Part shown: positions 33,496 through 41,244 of the stretch, piece after piece
Position numbering within the stretch: the first letter of the stretch is position 1
Layout: each line of letters starts with the position of its first letter
NCBI GenBank assembly: GCA_944390795.1
Contig: CALXRI010000019.1
Span: forward strand, 1 to 58,005
From: an uncultured Victivallales bacterium
GTDB taxonomy: Bacteria > Verrucomicrobiota > Lentisphaeria > Victivallales > UBA1829
Length of the DNA: 58,005 bases
Reading direction: 5' to 3'
Made by a program: the position numbers and the translations under genes
Notes under the pieces: generated by a model
The model's input: the letters and a program-made list of their open reading frames with translations, nothing else
Told to the model about the DNA's origin: nothing
Databases searched by the model: none

Positions 33496-33651
33496 CCGGG
33501 CCGGGGTGCGGATTCCCCATGCGGACATCCTGTTGCAGAAAATGAAAAATGCCGTTCCCTCCCGGCTTGAAAATACCATTCGAAACATTTATTTTAAGAA
33601 CAGCCGTTTCTCCAGGCAAAGATGCATCCGGAAATCAAAATGAGGAATACC

Positions 33652-34875
33652 ATGTTTCAGAACAGGATGATGAAACTTCGTGAACCGGTCGGAAAAACAT
33701 TTTCAATCGTCTTCACGGGAGATGTCTGCCCGAAGTCTCCCGAGTCCAGGGAGCGGACAATTCACAATGCGGAAGAACTGGCCGCGGAAATCAGGCCGTT
33801 CTTTGCGTCCGCCGCTCTGAAGCTCATGCAGTGGGAAGCCGCTCTGACGGAAGCGGACACTCCGATCGACAAATCCGGCCCCAACCTGAAATGCCCGCCG
33901 GAATGTCTGAATTTCGGCAGGGCTCTGGGGATTGACGTGATGCTGCTGGCCAACAACCATGTCGGCGATTTCGGCCCGGACGCGGTTCTGGAAACGGTCT
34001 CCCATGTTGAAAACGCGGGCTTTCTCCACGCGGGAGCGGGAAAAAACCTGGAGGATGCCGGAAAAACGCTCTTTCTGGAGCGGAACGGTTTCAGAATCGC
34101 AATCGTCAATTTCGCGGAGAACGAATTCGGAACCGCCGGACCGGACAAACCCGGCGTAGCGCCCATGCACCCCTTCGCCAACATCCGGCAGATCCGGGAG
34201 GCGAAAAAGAACGCGGACATTGTGATCGCCGCCATTCACGGCGGACATGAATACTACGCCTATCCCTCTCCGCGCATGGTGGAGCTCTACCGCGAGTATG
34301 CCGCCGCAGGAGCGGACATTGTCTGGGGATGCCATACGCACTGCTGCGTCGGATGCGAGATTTTCGGGAATGTCCCGATTGTTTATTCCCCCGGCAATTT
34401 TTATTTTCCGTATCCGGGGCCGCGCCCGGGGTGCTGGCACACAGGCTATCTCAGCAAGTTTTTCTGCGATGAAAAAGGCGTTTATGCGCTCGAACTTCTG
34501 CCGTATAAATTCGATGCGAATGCAGTCACCCCGCTGAACCCCGAAGATGAAAAGCTGTTTTTCGAATATTACGAAAAAATCTCGGCGCCCATCCGGCATC
34601 CGGATCTGCTCCAGCGCTGCTTTGAAGCCTGGTGCACCCGTTCAGGCATCGGCTACCTTTCGTGCCTGAACCGGGAAAAGGTGGAAAACTGGCCGCCGGA
34701 CTGGACCAGACAGGAAATCGTCAGATCCTGGCTGCCATGCCGGAATCTTTTCACCTGCGAGGCGCACAACGACATGCTGAAACAGACGCTGCGCCTGGTG
34801 GAGGAACACCGCATCGGCGAAGCCGGGAAACTGCTTCCCGAAATTCTCGCGCTCCAGAATCCGCCCTGGATGTGA
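33652..34875 (+). CDS. CapA family protein (metallophosphatase-like)
   Basis: A 407-residue protein of the CapA/PgsA family named for poly-gamma-glutamate capsule synthesis, with a calcineurin-like metal-binding core: FTGDVCP, LANNHVGDFG, IAAIHGGHEYY and GCHTHCCVG give the Asp, Asn-His, His and His-x-His ligands. No signal peptide or membrane anchor is seen, so unlike capsule CapA it should be cytoplasmic, and a phosphatase or amide-ligase partner role is open. The ATG at 33652 follows GAGGA; an ATG at 33622 has a weaker site. No capsule genes lie nearby. Confidence 0.8.
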   Translation: MFQNRMMKLREPVGKTFSIVFTGDVCPKSPESRERTIHNAEELAAEIRPFFASAALKLMQWEAALTEADTPIDKSGPNLKCPPECLNFGRALGIDVMLLANNHVGDFGPDAVLETVSHVENAGFLHAGAGKNLEDAGKTLFLERNGFRIAIVNFAENEFGTAGPDKPGVAPMHPFANIRQIREAKKNADIVIAAIHGGHEYYAYPSPRMVELYREYAAAGADIVWGCHTHCCVGCEIFGNVPIVYSPGNFYFPYPGPRPGCWHTGYLSKFFCDEKGVYALELLPYKFDANAVTPLNPEDEKLFFEYYEKISAPIRHPDLLQRCFEAWCTRSGIGYLSCLNREKVENWPPDWTRQEIVRSWLPCRNLFTCEAHNDMLKQTLRLVEEHRIGEAGKLLPEILALQNPPWM

Positions 34876-34907: not shown

Positions 34908-35732
34908 TCACCGCGGGATTTTCCGCTCCGCGGCTTTCGCGTTGGCGTAGCAGTAGATACAGCCGGCCGGACAGGTATTGTAGGAACCGATGTCCACGCT
35001 CGGCGCACAATGGCAGAGCTTCCTCTGGCCTGCGTCTTTCCCGCGTTTCAGACTCTTTCCGGAAATCCGGGCGATCCGATCCGGATCGACGCAGGCGCCT
35101 GCGGGAATCCCGTAACGGGCAAGCGTCTCGCAGCAGGATCGGAGTTCCAGGCCGTTTTCTCCGGCAATCCGCAGAAACGCTTCGGCAACGGCAGCCGTCA
35201 TGGATCCGTCCGGGGGAAAGATGCCGCTGCCGGCCATATTGCGCTCCGTCTTCCGGTAGAAATCAAGAAAGCTGACGACACAGCGTTCCGTAAAACCTGC
35301 CAGCCGCTCCGCCAGAATCCGGAACTGAGCGGCATGCCAGTCCGGATCCAGCGCGGGAGTGAACAGAACGGGGTCATAGCGCCAGACGACTCTTTCCTTT
35401 CCGATCCGCCGCGAAAGACGCTGAAAGACACGGACCAGTCCGGATTTCGGAGGCAGATTTCTTTCGATCTCCCTGCCGTAGGGGTTCAGCGTAAACTGAA
35501 AATAATAGCGGTATCCCATGGCGTCAATTTCCGGAAGACGCACCATCAGCGGCGCGGGATTCTTGGTCCAGAACACGATGCAGTCCACGGTGTCCGGAGA
35601 AAGGACGAGCGTCCTGATCTGTTTCGGATTGAACGGATTCCGGACGGAAAGCGACCCCTTTTTCAGGGCTTCCAGAAACCAGTCCCCGTAAAAGGCGGGA
35701 ATATCCGTGCGTCTGCTTGCGCTGAGAATCAT
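34908..35732 (-). CDS. DUF1848 family protein with C-terminal Cys cluster
   Basis: A 274-residue protein recognisable as DUF1848 by its start ILSASRRTDIPAFYGDWF and VFWTKNPAP. The C-terminus carries a cysteine cluster (CHCAPSVDIGSYNTCPAGC, then CYAN), which looks like an iron-sulfur site of radical-SAM-like proteins although it is at the wrong end of the chain for a classical one. The biochemical role is unknown. The start at 35732 follows AGGAG. It converges on the CapA-like gene and lies 54 bp behind ftsW on the same strand... in the direction of transcription. Confidence 0.8.
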   Translation of the reverse strand: MILSASRRTDIPAFYGDWFLEALKKGSLSVRNPFNPKQIRTLVLSPDTVDCIVFWTKNPAPLMVRLPEIDAMGYRYYFQFTLNPYGREIERNLPPKSGLVRVFQRLSRRIGKERVVWRYDPVLFTPALDPDWHAAQFRILAERLAGFTERCVVSFLDFYRKTERNMAGSGIFPPDGSMTAAVAEAFLRIAGENGLELRSCCETLARYGIPAGACVDPDRIARISGKSLKRGKDAGQRKLCHCAPSVDIGSYNTCPAGCIYCYANAKAAERKIPR

Positions 35733-35786
35733 GATATGCTCCTTTTTCTCATAATTTGACACGGCCCGCCATTTGCGCAGCAGATT

Positions 35787-36884
35787 TCATTCCTCTTTTG
35801 CCGCGCTGAAAGCCATGCCGCAGGCGAGCATGACGGACAGCAGGGAGCTTCCGCCGTAACTCAGAAGCGGCAATGTCACACCGGTCGGCGGCAGAAGGAC
35901 GCTGTTGACGCTGATGTGAATCAGCGCCTGAACCAGATACATGGCGCCGACACCGAAAACAAAAACACGTCCGGCGCCCTCCCGGATTTTCCATGACATT
36001 GCCGTGAATCCGGCCCCCATTGCGCAAAACCCGCAAATCACAATCATGCCGCCGATGAAACCCGTTGATTCCACCAGGGAGGCAAACAGCGAATCCGTAT
36101 GGGGAAGCGGCAGAAACGCGCTTGACCAGAGCGCGTTGCCCCATGCGGAACCGCTCCATCCTCCGTGTGCCATCGTATACTGAAACTGCCGGATATGCCA
36201 GGCGTCGACGCCGTAACCGCCTTCCGGATCAAGATAGCCGAGAATGCGGAGCAATGCGTAATCGTTGAGCGCAATGAAAATCACTCCGCAGACGGCGAGA
36301 AGCGCCACCGCGGCGGCAAGATGGCGGGAACTTGCGCCGGAAACCGCCATGACTGTGAGAAATGCGGCGAAAAACACCAGTGCGCCGCCGAAGTCCGGCT
36401 CCAACATCAATAACAATATGACAAGAAAACTCATTCCGAACAGAAAAAGAGTCTTCCGGAAAGACGCGGCGGCACTTCCGGTAGCGGCAACACTCAGCCA
36501 GAGCAGGAAAAACACTTTGCCGAATTCCGACGGCTGGATGCTGAGCGTCTCCGTCAGACGGAACCAGCCGTGCATTCCGTTGATCTCAACGCCGCAAAAC
36601 AGCACCAGAAACAGCGAGAGGAGCGTGAGCAGAAAAAGCCAGCAAGCCGCTTTCCGATACCAGGAGAAAGGAACCAGTCCGGCGGCAAGGAAAACCGCGA
36701 CACCGGCCCCCAGCCAGACCAGCTGTTTCATGGCGAAAACAAGCGGCGCCTCGGAAAAGGCCCGCGCGCTGTAAATGGAAAGACATCCAAGCAGTCCCGC
36801 AACGGTCAGGATCAGAAGCGCGGCAAACGGAAGCAGTCTTCCCGATTTTCCGCCGAGGGGGATGGAGAATCTAATTTTCCGCAT
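35787..36884 (-). CDS. ftsW: SEDS peptidoglycan glycosyltransferase, FtsW-type
   Basis: A 365-residue SEDS protein with about ten membrane helices that polymerises lipid II into glycan chains. Conserved elements are present: IQPSEFGK, LEPDFGGAL, PHTDSLFASLVESTGF with the catalytic Asp, and PPTGVTLPLLSYGGSS. That last motif is nearer to FtsW/SpoVE than to RodA. The start at 36884 lies inside the last codons of the upstream pedestal gene (14-bp overlap) behind GGAG, so the two are translationally coupled. An in-frame start at 36953 would extend it by 23 residues into that gene. It closes the mraZ - ftsL-like - pedestal - ftsW unit. Confidence 0.93.
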   Translation of the reverse strand: MRKIRFSIPLGGKSGRLLPFAALLILTVAGLLGCLSIYSARAFSEAPLVFAMKQLVWLGAGVAVFLAAGLVPFSWYRKAACWLFLLTLLSLFLVLFCGVEINGMHGWFRLTETLSIQPSEFGKVFFLLWLSVAATGSAAASFRKTLFLFGMSFLVILLLMLEPDFGGALVFFAAFLTVMAVSGASSRHLAAAVALLAVCGVIFIALNDYALLRILGYLDPEGGYGVDAWHIRQFQYTMAHGGWSGSAWGNALWSSAFLPLPHTDSLFASLVESTGFIGGMIVICGFCAMGAGFTAMSWKIREGAGRVFVFGVGAMYLVQALIHISVNSVLLPPTGVTLPLLSYGGSSLLSVMLACGMAFSAAKEE

Positions 36885-37584
36885 TTTCAAGCCGCTCCAC
36901 GGACGCATCCGTTCCTGCCGGCAGGAGAAAATCCGCCGTAATGTCTTTTCCATTCTCCGCCCGGCGCGTAATGCGCAGCGTCTCGTTGCACCAGTTCCCG
37001 TTCCGGTCCAGCATCACGATCACTCTGCCGGCCCTTCCGGAAAGTTCCATATCATATTTCCGTTCCAGTCCGGAAATCCCCACAATCTCGCCGGCATTGT
37101 TCCGTGCCGTTTTTCCGATCCGTTCCCGGATCTCGGGGGGTCCCGTGACAACGCGGCGTATGACCGGAACAATTCTCACTTCCGGGAAAAAGCGGAATTC
37201 GCGCGCGTACAGAACAATCTCCTCGGGGGAGAGAGAGTTTTTCAGAAGAAGCGGCATTTTTGCCGTCCATGACACCTCCGCGGAGAAAAAACGCGCCATC
37301 CGCCGCCGCAGAGTCTCTCTCCGGCGGGGAGATTCCGGGACCCTTTCCAGAATGAAATCATGACAGAGCTCAGTCCAGGCGGCGGGAACACCGTTCCGGT
37401 CAAGAATTTTCCCGCGCAGCGCGGGGATTTCCGCCTCGCGCCAGGCAATGCGGCGCGTTTCGGCCAGGGATTCCTCCCGTTTCGCAACTGCGTAATAAAA
37501 GACATGGGCGGCCGCAACGACCGCCCATATCAGTAGGAAAGAAAGGATTGTCAATGTTTTCAGTTTGAATCCGCCGGCAGCCAT
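36871..37584 (-). CDS. Class B PBP (FtsI-like) pedestal protein without transpeptidase domain
   Basis: A 237-residue bitopic protein: membrane helix about 9-31, then the class B penicillin-binding-protein pedestal. RGKILDRNG (57-65) and GLERKYDMELSGRAG (172-186) are the classic motifs of FtsI/PBP2 dimerisation domains. In FtsI about 350 further residues with SxxK, SxN and KTG follow; here the chain stops 50 residues after the second motif, and the coding frame runs directly into ftsW. No SxxK is present and the downstream DNA encodes FtsW, so the transpeptidase is absent rather than frameshifted. It could serve as a dedicated FtsW activator. The start at 37584 has only a weak ribosome site. 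Confidence 0.82.
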   Translation of the reverse strand: MAAGGFKLKTLTILSFLLIWAVVAAAHVFYYAVAKREESLAETRRIAWREAEIPALRGKILDRNGVPAAWTELCHDFILERVPESPRRRETLRRRMARFFSAEVSWTAKMPLLLKNSLSPEEIVLYAREFRFFPEVRIVPVIRRVVTGPPEIRERIGKTARNNAGEIVGISGLERKYDMELSGRAGRVIVMLDRNGNWCNETLRITRRAENGKDITADFLLPAGTDASVERLENAEN

Positions 37585-37613
37585 GGTTCCCGCGCATCCC
37601 GTCCGGAATCACC

Positions 37614-37886
37614 TCATTGCGCCTTCATGCCCGCGGAGCATGCCCGGAGGAAAAGCTCCGGCTCCGCTCCGGCCAGTTCGGACCAGCTTTGCCGATACCG
37701 CTCCGCAATTCCATTTTCCAGCTCCGCAACAGCTTCCCGGCATGCCGCCTTCGTCTGCATGGAGCGAATACGGCGATTGCCCAGGTCTTCCCGGAATCTT
37801 CCGGCGCCGAGCAGCAGAAGGGAAAGAAGCAGGATCGCCGCATAAAGGACATAATGCATGCGGCCGTTTTTTCTGACCGGTTCCAT
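37614..37886 (-). CDS. Small bitopic protein at the FtsL position
   Basis: A 90-residue protein: a short basic cytoplasmic tail, one membrane helix (about 11-27, YVLYAAILLLSLLLLGAG), and a roughly 60-residue outer segment of helical, charged character. Topology, size and place between mraZ and an ftsI-like gene are those of FtsL, but the outer segment is too short and poor in heptads to be sure. The ATG at 37886 is favoured over the GTG at 37898, which overlaps its AAAGGAG site. The gene rsmH, normally found here, is absent. Confidence 0.6.
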   Translation of the reverse strand: MEPVRKNGRMHYVLYAAILLLSLLLLGAGRFREDLGNRRIRSMQTKAACREAVAELENGIAERYRQSWSELAGAEPELFLRACSAGMKAQ

Positions 37887-37939
37887 TGCCGTCTCCACTC
37901 CTTTCCTCTCAAAATACTTGATTTCACCTTGACTTCAGC

Positions 37940-38419
37940 TCAAACGCCCCGGTCCGTTTCCAGATCGGACTCCATTTCCCGCTCGCCTTTCACGCGTTCA
38001 TGCTCCAGAATCATCTTCTGTTCCTCAAGCCAGCGTTCCCGGCTCCAGATTTCAACGCCGATCTCATTGCCGACCACCATGACGTCACCGCCGGGAACAA
38101 GTCCGGCGTGTTCCCGGTATTCCGGAGGAAGCGTGATCCGCCCCTGGGCGGAAATCCTCTGCGACTGACTCCAGGCGCCGAATCTGCGCAGACTTCTGCG
38201 GAACACCATGCTTTCCGCCGCGCGCTTCGCCGGATCCGGGACCGCGCTGCGCATTGCAAGGTAAATATCTTCCGGATAAACCGCGACGGCGCCTTCCGGC
38301 AGACAATGAAGCACGACGTCGCTTCCCCGGCGGGCAAAATCCTCCATCACCCGGGGACTGAGCTTGATTCTTCCATTGGCGTCAACAGAGCACCTGTCAA
38401 GACCGCAAAAGGCGAGCAT
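37940..38419 (-). CDS. mraZ: Transcriptional regulator / division cluster protein MraZ
   Basis: A 159-residue MraZ with two AbrB-like swapped-hairpin repeats. The first has the canonical DANGR (D-x3-R, residues 13-17) and the second SAQGR, with Ser in place of Asp. MraZ forms a ring that binds tandem 5-bp boxes upstream of its own gene and adjusts the division cluster. Such boxes lie just upstream (38433-38467), so autoregulation is likely. The C-terminal 30 residues are highly charged and extend beyond the usual length of about 145. The start at 38419 follows GGGAGAGG. The next gene is 53 bp downstream. Confidence 0.94.
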   Translation of the reverse strand: MLAFCGLDRCSVDANGRIKLSPRVMEDFARRGSDVVLHCLPEGAVAVYPEDIYLAMRSAVPDPAKRAAESMVFRRSLRRFGAWSQSQRISAQGRITLPPEYREHAGLVPGGDVMVVGNEIGVEIWSRERWLEEQKMILEHERVKGEREMESDLETDRGV

Positions 38420-38432
38420 TTGCCTCTCCCTG

Positions 38433-38467
38433 TTCCATTATATTCCATTATATTCCATTTTTATCCA
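38433..38467 (-). promoter_or_regulatory. MraZ-box-like operator: four TGGA[A/T] repeats
   Basis: On the minus strand TGGAT, TGGAA, TGGAA, TGGAA stand at exact 10-bp intervals (38463-38467, 38453-38457, 38443-38447, 38433-38437), separated by 5-bp spacers. This matches the known MraZ operator layout (TGGGN boxes with 5-bp spacers), with a G-to-A change in each box. The last box is 13 bp upstream of the mraZ start codon. Confidence 0.7.
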
Positions 38468-38474
38468 AAATCAA
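38447..38474 (-). promoter_or_regulatory. mraZ promoter inside the boxes
   Basis: TTGATT (38469-38474), 16 bp, TATAAT (38447-38452). A second TATAAT is formed at 38437-38442 by the next spacer. The operator boxes overlap the -10 and the expected start site, which fits repression. Confidence 0.55.
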
Positions 38475-38748: not shown

Positions 38749-39450
38749 ATGAGCAGAGAAAGAATCATGATCGTGGAGGACGAGGAGTCCATCCAGGAAC
38801 TGATCCGCTACAATCTGCTGCGGGAGGGATTTCTGGTTCCCGTCTGCTGCGAGAACGGCGAATCCGCGCTGGAGAACGCCGTCACCTACAAACCGGACCT
38901 GATCCTGCTGGATCTGATGCTGCCAGGCATGGACGGCCTGACGGTCTGCCGGAATCTCAAAAACGATCCGGTCACGCGGCGGATTCCCGTCATCATGCTG
39001 ACCGCGAAGAGCGAGGAAAGCGACATTGTGATCGGTCTGGAACTCGGCGCTGACGATTACATCACCAAGCCGTTCAGCCCGAAAATCCTGACGGCGCGCA
39101 TTCACGCGGTGCTCCGGCGCATCGCCGCGCTGGCGGAGACTCCCGCGGATGAAAAGGAACTTGTAAGGGGACCGCTCCACATGAACGCTGTGCGGCGCTC
39201 CGCAAGTCTGGACGGCCGTGAACTGGACCTTACCTGTTCCGAATTCAACATTCTCTACCATCTGGCAAAACGTCCCGGATGGGTGTTCACGCGCAGCCAG
39301 ATTGTAAACGCCGTACGCGGCGACGACTATCCCGTGACAGAACGTGCCGTGGACGTCCAGATCGTCGGCCTCCGCCGGAAGATGGGCGGATTCGGCGAAC
39401 TGATCGAAACCGTACGCGGCATCGGATACCGTTTCACCCAGGAGCTGTGA
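38749..39450 (+). CDS. OmpR/PhoB-type response regulator
   Basis: A 233-residue two-component regulator. The receiver domain has the acidic pair in IVEDEES, the phosphorylated Asp55 in LILLDLMLPGMDG, Thr in MLTAKSEE and Lys in YITKPFSP. The C-terminal winged helix (about 135-230; LDLTCSEFNILYHLA, GYRFTQEL at the end) is OmpR/PhoB-like. The closest match of the whole chain by eye is PhoB/PhoP of phosphate regulation. It is four bp ahead of the sensor kinase. Phosphate genes are not in the window, so the signal remains inferred. Confidence 0.92.
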   Translation: MSRERIMIVEDEESIQELIRYNLLREGFLVPVCCENGESALENAVTYKPDLILLDLMLPGMDGLTVCRNLKNDPVTRRIPVIMLTAKSEESDIVIGLELGADDYITKPFSPKILTARIHAVLRRIAALAETPADEKELVRGPLHMNAVRRSASLDGRELDLTCSEFNILYHLAKRPGWVFTRSQIVNAVRGDDYPVTERAVDVQIVGLRRKMGGFGELIETVRGIGYRFTQEL

Positions 39451-39453
39451 AAC

Positions 39454-41244
39454 ATGAAAACATTCAACGTCAAACTCTTCATCTATCTCCCGCTTTTTCT
39501 CCTTCTGGCCGTTGCGCTTCTGCTGTTCGCGGTCTACCGCCAGGCGGTCAAGCTGGAAGAGGGATACTTTGAAACGGTCCGTTCCGGACTCGCCGCGCGC
39601 GACTTCCTCATGCGTGAGCCGATCAGGGAATACATCCGGCGCAATGAATATGAAAAACTGCGGGCCTACTGCGCAAACGCTGCAAAGCAGATGAACATCC
39701 GCGTCACAGTGATCGACGGGAACGGAAAAATCCTTGCGGAATCGGAAAATGATCCTCATTTCATGGAAAATCACCTGGAACGCCCCGAAATCGCATCCGC
39801 CCTCGCGGGGACCGCATCCGGAGCGACCCGGTACAGCAGCACGCTGGCAACCGACATGTCTTATTATGCCATGCCGATTTCCGTCGACGGAAAAAACTAC
39901 TGCATCCGGACCGCGGTCGGATCAGCCAGGCTCGGAATCCTCCTGAAACAGGTGTTCCGCACCATTCTGCTGGCGGGAATCATCGGAGCGCTGGTTGCGG
40001 CGGGACTCGCCTTCTACCTGTTCCGCCTGGTCACACATCCGCTGGACGAACTGCGCCACGCGGCGGAAAAGGTCGCGCGCGGGGATTATGACGTCAGTCT
40101 CCCGGTCCCCGCAAACGGAGAGATCCGCATGCTTGCCGTTGCGCTGAATTCAATGAGTGAAGAACTCAAGGCGAAACTTGCCAAGATCACCCGGGAAAAA
40201 AATGAACGAGATGCCATTCTTTCCAGCATGACCGAAGGCGTGATCCTCGTCAAAGGCAGCGGCATCATCAAACGCTGGAACAGGGCAGCGGAAACGATGT
40301 TCCGCTTCACCGGAGCCGGAGAGCGCGAACTCTCCTTTGCGGCGGTCACAGGCAGCCGCGAACTGATCCGCCTGACCGAGGAGGCAAAGAACACCGAGGG
40401 CATCTGCGAGGCCGAACTGACGTTGAACATGCCGGACGGACCGCGCAGTTTCATTGCGCGCGCAGGCCGTTTGAATCTCGGGGAAAAGCGCCGCCCCGGC
40501 GTGCTTCTGGTGCTGACCGACATTACCGTGATCCGGAAACTCGAGGAGTTCCGGCGCGACTTCATCGCCGATGTCTCGCATGAGATCAAAACGCCGCTCA
40601 CCTCCATTGTCGCCGCCGTCGAAACGCTGGAGAACGCCCGCGGCGATCAGGAGGCGCAGGCGCGTTTCCTGAAAATCATCACGCAGCAGGCGACGCGTCT
40701 GAATGCGCTTGTCCAGGATATCTTGAGTCTCTCCAATCTGGAGCACAAGCGCCTGAGTTCGGCAGGAGAAATGCAGGAACTTTCCATCGAGGGCGTGCTG
40801 CGGGAAGCGGTCGAACTCTGCCGTCCCCGCGCGGAAGAAAAAAACATCCGTCTCAATCTCGAAATCACCGACGGCATGACGGCGCACGCCGATGCGCGGC
40901 TGCTGGAACAGGCGGTTGTCAATCTGATCGACAATGCCGTCAAATACAGCGATGAAAATTCCGAAGTGAAAATTTCCCTGCGCCGCATGGAAGGAGATCT
41001 TGCGCGAATCGACGTGACGGATCACGGGATCGGCATCGCGAAAGAGCATCAGGAACGCGTTTTCGAACGCTTCTACCGCGTGGACAAGGCCCGAAGCCGC
41101 AAGCTTGGCGGAACCGGACTCGGACTGGCTATCGTCAAACACGTCGCACTCTTCCATGGAGGAAAGGCCGGGGTTGTCAGCGAACCGGGAAAAGGAAGCG
41201 ATTTTTACATCCAGTTCCCGGTGAACTGCCCGAAAAACGGCTGA
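39454..41244 (+). CDS. PhoR-type sensor histidine kinase
   Basis: A 596-residue membrane kinase. Two membrane helices (about 7-26 and 170-192) enclose a 140-residue periplasmic sensor domain. A HAMP linker (about 192-245), a PAS-like domain (about 250-360), the H-box with phospho-accepting His376 in DVSHEIKTPLTS, and an HATPase domain with N-box NLIDNAVKY and G-boxes GIGIA and GGTGLGLAI follow. The order TM-sensor-TM-HAMP-PAS-HisKA-HATPase is that of PhoR/WalK-like kinases. It shares an operon with the response regulator just upstream and converges on the U32 gene 17 bp away. Confidence 0.93.
   Translation: MKTFNVKLFIYLPLFLLLAVALLLFAVYRQAVKLEEGYFETVRSGLAARDFLMREPIREYIRRNEYEKLRAYCANAAKQMNIRVTVIDGNGKILAESENDPHFMENHLERPEIASALAGTASGATRYSSTLATDMSYYAMPISVDGKNYCIRTAVGSARLGILLKQVFRTILLAGIIGALVAAGLAFYLFRLVTHPLDELRHAAEKVARGDYDVSLPVPANGEIRMLAVALNSMSEELKAKLAKITREKNERDAILSSMTEGVILVKGSGIIKRWNRAAETMFRFTGAGERELSFAAVTGSRELIRLTEEAKNTEGICEAELTLNMPDGPRSFIARAGRLNLGEKRRPGVLLVLTDITVIRKLEEFRRDFIADVSHEIKTPLTSIVAAVETLENARGDQEAQARFLKIITQQATRLNALVQDILSLSNLEHKRLSSAGEMQELSIEGVLREAVELCRPRAEEKNIRLNLEITDGMTAHADARLLEQAVVNLIDNAVKYSDENSEVKISLRRMEGDLARIDVTDHGIGIAKEHQERVFERFYRVDKARSRKLGGTGLGLAIVKHVALFHGGKAGVVSEPGKGSDFYIQFPVNCPKNG

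Follow-up and report, generated by a model that had tools for sequence, protein, structure and literature searches.

The 58,005-nucleotide window analysed here (the whole stretch of DNA, corresponding to contig C19 of a 3.44-Mb, 95% complete assembly of an uncultured Victivallales bacterium) raises the question of what a class B PBP made up of a membrane anchor and a pedestal, and lacking a transpeptidase domain, does beside an intact SEDS gene. A first-pass annotation had described the locus as a reduced division cluster that had lost rsmH and the catalytic half of ftsI, and had suggested that the truncated protein may serve as a dedicated SEDS activator. All four of its ORFs were recovered where it had placed them, on the minus strand, and are listed here together with a predicted operator and a promoter-like site:

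35787..36953, minus strand: SEDS3, third SEDS-family protein, 388 aa; PF01098 (FTSW_RODA_SPOVE), 7e-63
36871..37584, minus strand: PED, transpeptidase-less class B PBP with membrane anchor and pedestal, 237 aa; Pfam PBP_dimer, 6e-11
37614..37898, minus strand: small bitopic protein, 94 aa, GTG start; FtsL by position only
37940..38419, minus strand: mraZ2, second, divergent MraZ-type regulator, 159 aa; Pfam MraZ, 1e-12
38433..38467, minus strand: predicted mraZ2 operator, four TGG boxes with a 10-nt period (TGGATAAAAATGGAATATAATGGAATATAATGGAA)
38447..38474, minus strand: promoter-like site TTGATT-N16-TATAAT, 10/12 consensus matches, its -10 element within the operator

No match to the Transpeptidase domain (PF00905) was found in PED, for which Pfam yields PBP_dimer alone, and the NCBIfam profiles that it matches (MrdA, PBP2X, SpoVD and others like them) are covered only in their N-terminal part. 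From its first ATG the SEDS3 ORF begins 82 nt inside the PED gene; its likely start is the better-conserved ATG at 36884 (MRKIRF, codon 24), giving a 14-nt overlap with PED, and a 4-nt coupling overlap of the two genes is seen in many relatives. Because the SEDS gene starts at or before the PED stop codon, no transpeptidase motif follows PED. Neither rsmH nor mur genes lie between mraZ2 and SEDS3. The operon is flanked upstream of mraZ2 by divergent genes for a PhoB-like response regulator and a PhoR-like sensor kinase (38749-41244, plus strand), and downstream of SEDS3 by genes for a DUF1848 protein (34908-35762, minus strand) and a PGA_cap capsule synthesis protein (33622-34875, plus strand), the latter two being found downstream in the closest relative (L043) as well. 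Some relatives within the class have a sensor-kinase gene immediately after SEDS3 or PED, or overlapping one of them (L132 7552-8736, L133 4521-5762).

Structure prediction of PED by AlphaFold2 (pLDDT 91.9) followed by a Foldseek search returned a pedestal fold, as the first-pass annotation had anticipated, with PBP2 of the T. thermophilus RodA-PBP2 complex (6pl5_B) as the best match in the PDB and with further matches to class B PBPs such as PBP2x, P. aeruginosa PBP3, PBP2 and PBP2a, and to FtsI in the FtsWIQBL complexes 8bh1 and 8p1u. By sequence profile, residues 10-222 of PED align to residues 14-226 of the 579 residues of P. aeruginosa FtsI, which comprise the anchor and the whole pedestal up to the start of the transpeptidase domain. 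PED carries the class B PBP pedestal motifs RGxI and GLE, with R57, G58, R144 and E174 near-invariant, but not the second hallmark of the family, a C-terminal transpeptidase domain with SxxK, SxN and KTG. The first-pass reading of a transpeptidase-less class B PBP beside an intact SEDS gene is supported. In a quick tree, unrooted as to the time of duplication and with some long branches (as are those of SEDS3 and MraZ2 below), PED forms one clade against the pedestals of FtsI and MrdA (SH-aLRT 100).

The idea of a reduced division cluster did not survive inspection of the rest of the genome. A full-length ftsI (645 aa, full transpeptidase), which the first-pass annotation had proposed to look for, lies in an mraZ-rsmH-ftsL-ftsI cluster on contig C4, mrdA lies on contig C2 beside genes read as mreC and mreD, and the genome yields three matches to PF03717 (FtsI, MrdA and PED) and three to PF01098 (ftsW followed by murG on C1, rodA adjoining purA on C7, and SEDS3). 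The mraZ-rsmH-ftsL-ftsI cluster is likewise intact in 20/20 relatives read, ruling out a reduced or damaged dcw cluster. Since the canonical division genes are intact elsewhere, the window operon is an extra, paralogous third SEDS/class B PBP set. A split PBP, with pedestal and transpeptidase on separate genes, is ruled out in this genome, where no stand-alone transpeptidase domain was found and both PF00905 matches are the full-length FtsI and MrdA. Stand-alone PF00905 ORFs of 282-305 aa, unlinked to PED, do occur in five other genomes (G059:C99:299713, G056:C28, G044:C246, G057:C25 and G052:C15) and are possibly class D beta-lactamase-like.

A protein search of 61 related genomes revealed the short PED gene in many genera. 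Thirty-six relatives in the order carry the same short gene at this locus, as do many more in the class, so that the truncation is conserved, a point the first-pass annotation had proposed to check; those relatives that bear a name are uncultured members of Victivallales and Lentisphaeria. A profile built from 32 members detected short PED in about 121 of the 198 Lentisphaeria genomes, the short-frame matches being counted by reading the listed matches, and in none of the sampled genomes of other classes in an even sample of the phylum. Outside the class, all matches at E <= 1e-12 are frames of 455-719 aa, a size that fits full-length class B PBPs of the usual kind. The median length of PED is 238 aa and its dN/dS within genus is 0.19-0.24. 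Searches of the open-access literature turned up no account of a class B PBP that is conserved without its transpeptidase.

Inspection of 76 PED loci placed SEDS3 directly downstream in 65; of the remainder, three are cut off where the contig stops and eight lack an adjacent SEDS3 despite intact flanks. Upstream of PED, mraZ2 was present in 53 of these loci and the small bitopic gene was recognised in 41, the link of mraZ2 to PED being mostly lost in family f4. Genomes with PED generally have three SEDS proteins, whereas the genomes of genus g5 and family f8 without PED have two, or in one case one. SEDS3 was not found in three genomes (G062, G063 and G064, families f10/f11) although PED is present. 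Most of the surveyed genomes are fragmented metagenome assemblies, and one counted as PED-negative (G004) carries a PED fragment at a contig end. A candidate natural PED-SEDS3 fusion in G165 (a 666-aa frame) turned out to be overlapping frames only.

The SEDS3 proteins make up a single clade (SH-aLRT 100) that excludes the FtsW and RodA of the class; the latter, this genome's copies included, cluster with their E. coli counterparts. Among the positions at which substitutions inactivate E. coli FtsW (PMC8765783), W138, Q147, Y242, R246, D297 and Y379-G381 are kept in nearly all 63 SEDS3 members (W130, Q140, Y232, R236, D287, Y366, G367 and G368 in window numbering), the catalytic Asp D287 in 61 of them. 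R243, essential in E. coli FtsW, is not kept and is mostly V or A in SEDS3; the genome's own RodA differs there too. SEDS3 has in addition its own fixed residues S288, H346 and N350. Loss of FtsW in family f6, with SEDS3 as its substitute, was considered and rejected: two genomes keep FtsW, two keep RodA, and the gaps look like missing contigs. A further SEDS-like protein, with a PF01098 match split by an insert in frames of 410-482 aa, occurs in G070-G072, G068, G069, G093, G097, G110 and G111.

In the tree, MraZ2 and canonical MraZ proteins from the same genomes fall in separate clades (SH-aLRT 97). MraZ2 combines the MraZ domain with 5-nt boxes at a 10-nt period upstream of its own gene, here TGGAA-N5 repeats that overlap the -10 element of the promoter-like site. 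Of 55 mraZ2 genes, 39 are preceded by at least three TGG-type boxes, where shuffled sequences would give 0.1; no such boxes precede PED. Ahead of canonical mraZ genes in the class the boxes read AGGGN or AGGTN, again every 10 nt (at least three in 17/21), and take the form of AGGGG-N5 direct repeats in the window's own genome (G000:C4, L009 11986 and upstream) and in 20 relatives. AGG-type repeats were found upstream of 0/55 mraZ2 genes, and TGGA/TGGT-type repeats (at least three) upstream of 0/21 canonical mraZ genes. E. coli mraZ has the same operator architecture with TGGG-type boxes, and the AGGGG boxes differ both from these and from the TGGAA boxes. The two paralogues therefore probably run insulated circuits, with binding predicted from the boxes.

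The small bitopic protein, which the first-pass annotation had called FtsL-like, owes that label to position and topology; its identity as FtsL found no support, with an hhalign probability of 6.9% in comparison with the class's canonical FtsL and no Pfam family above cut-off. Its family has invariant W72 and P80, and AlphaFold2 gives, at modest confidence (pLDDT 74), one 50-residue helix (12-61) and two short helices. It may be an FtsL analogue.

Taking these observations together, we consider it probable, on balance, that the operon encodes a third peptidoglycan polymerase unit, in which a crosslink-free SEDS3 is activated by PED, served by FtsI or MrdA for crosslinking and controlled by MraZ2. 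SEDS3 would polymerise glycan from lipid II as a unit distinct from FtsW-FtsI and RodA-MrdA; PED would bind it via membrane anchor and pedestal and give it the allosteric activation usual from class B PBPs, without the ability to crosslink; the strands would be crosslinked in trans by FtsI or MrdA; and MraZ2 would repress and tune the operon via a dedicated TGGAA-N5 operator that overlaps the promoter, kept apart from the circuit of the canonical MraZ. In a cell devoid of class A PBPs, such a unit could work at division, in repair or in filling gaps. The analysis shows the anatomy, the fold, the conservation, the separate clades, the retained active-site residues and the operators; the PED-SEDS3 complex, the polymerase activity, the activation and the repression of the operon are what we infer.

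It has been demonstrated that the class B PBP pedestal contacts ECL4 of its SEDS partner and switches on polymerisation (PMC8078798), motion of the RodA-PBP2 complex has been described (PMC10257715), and class B PBPs whose catalytic activity is abolished can go on supporting their SEDS partner (PMC12713402, PMC9426605). Considering the known pedestal activation and the dead class B PBPs together with the operon anatomy, PED is most likely a natural non-catalytic activator dedicated to a SEDS protein. The class-wide conservation of PED, its dN/dS of about 0.2 and its confident pedestal fold support the proposed unit, as gene adjacency (65/76 loci) and co-occurrence support the pairing of PED with SEDS3. 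Also in its favour are the single SEDS3 clade with its retained FtsW residues, PED's own conserved residues at mapped activation positions (W48 and M191), and a genome with neither a class A PBP match nor a stand-alone transpeptidase domain. The eight intact loci without an adjacent SEDS3 and the three PED genomes in which none was found count against an obligate pair, and the unkept equivalent of FtsW R243 and the mostly lost mraZ2 link in f4 count against the proposal more generally.

A narrower form of the proposed unit, in which SEDS3-PED specifically replaces class A PBPs as an autonomous gap-filling polymerase, is possible but rather doubtful. Class A PBPs (PF00912) gave no match in the window's genome, while 10/14 control genomes matched; across the class they are present in 64/198 genomes and were not found in 134/198, and other members of the PVC superphylum are known to lack them too (PMC8406291). 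PED occurs more often where a class A PBP is missing (94/134) than where one is present (27/64; Fisher 3e-4, uncorrected for kinship), and within family f1 the figures are 15/16 versus 4/20. A strict exchange found no support, with 40 genomes having neither (family f8 and part of f4) and 27 having both, and the lineages concerned are few. With kinship uncorrected and those 40 genomes devoid of both, the figures do no more than suggest that the unit substitutes for class A PBPs. The peptidoglycan polymerases of the window's genome appear to be SEDS proteins only. As to the source of crosslinks, the first-pass annotation had named another PBP or an L,D-transpeptidase; since the genome has no class A PBP match and only one weak YkuD match, FtsI or MrdA is the natural source.

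Alternatively, PED might regulate the canonical machines by binding FtsW or RodA and activating them, titrating them or blocking them against FtsI or MrdA, with SEDS3 as a secondary partner. Its persistence in the three f10/f11 genomes and its generic class B PBP pedestal fold would suit such a role; we nonetheless judge it unlikely, as SEDS3 adjoins PED in most loci, genomes with three SEDS proteins carry PED and those of g5/f8 that lack PED have at most two, and PED differs from FtsI and MrdA at the interface. Certain mutations of FtsI or PBP2 alter SEDS activation (PMC8078798), and at the mapped positions PED has a consensus of its own, A47-W48 at E. coli FtsI S61-L62 and M191-L192 at R210-K211, which fits, without proving, a re-tuned pedestal-SEDS contact.

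That SEDS3 polymerises another envelope glycan in place of peptidoglycan, with PED as a scaffold, is more improbable still: its long branch outside FtsW and RodA, the loss of R243 and the new fixed residues S288, H346 and N350 would be in keeping with a changed substrate, but the FtsW active-site residues and a class B PBP-type partner are kept, and the operon has an mraZ gene and an MraZ-type operator. Finally, a local deletion, decaying gene or assembly error, to which the absent transpeptidase domain might point, can be put aside with near certainty, the relatives, the class-wide length, the purifying selection and the coupled gene overlap all standing against it, and the conserved short length and dN/dS together refuting deletion, frameshift or assembly error.

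The proposed third polymerase unit would bear on whether a pedestal alone can activate a SEDS protein and whether polymerisation must be coupled to crosslinking, questions so far studied with engineered mutants; PED is a truncated partner made by evolution and kept across a class, and is thus at hand for in vitro assays. With no transpeptidase, a SEDS unit would have no beta-lactam target of its own, which would matter for how such bacteria respond to cell-wall antibiotics, and two MraZ paralogues with non-overlapping operators offer a direct test of how MraZ reads DNA. More tentatively, and with less confidence than the unit itself, we suggest that the system may be a third kind of SEDS machine, with an obligate pedestal-only activator, polymerisation genetically uncoupled from crosslinking and a second MraZ circuit insulated from the first, and that it may fill the role of class A PBPs in bacteria that have mostly lost them.

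Among known systems, the dcw cluster (mraZ-rsmH-ftsL-ftsI-...-ftsW) shares with the window operon the order of mraZ, small bitopic gene, class B PBP-like gene and SEDS gene, but the operon is without rsmH or mur genes and the canonical cluster stands intact elsewhere in the same genome. The FtsW-FtsI and RodA-PBP2 pairs likewise combine, from adjacent genes, a SEDS protein that keeps the catalytic Asp with a partner that has one anchor and a pedestal; PED differs in having no transpeptidase domain, and SEDS3 and PED fall in clades of their own. RagB (YrrS) of B. subtilis (PMC12457691) is likewise a membrane protein with no transpeptidase that stimulates a SEDS polymerase, one that becomes important when class A PBPs are missing, but it acts on RodA, which has class B PBPs of its own, and it is likened to PED by role and not by relationship to the pedestal. 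A further parallel is offered by class B PBPs made catalytically dead (B. subtilis PBP2B, C. difficile SpoVD S311A and S. aureus PBP1*; PMC12713402, PMC9426605), which act as non-catalytic scaffolds or activators while crosslinking comes partly from others; these are laboratory point mutants of full-length enzymes, whereas PED is a natural, conserved truncation.
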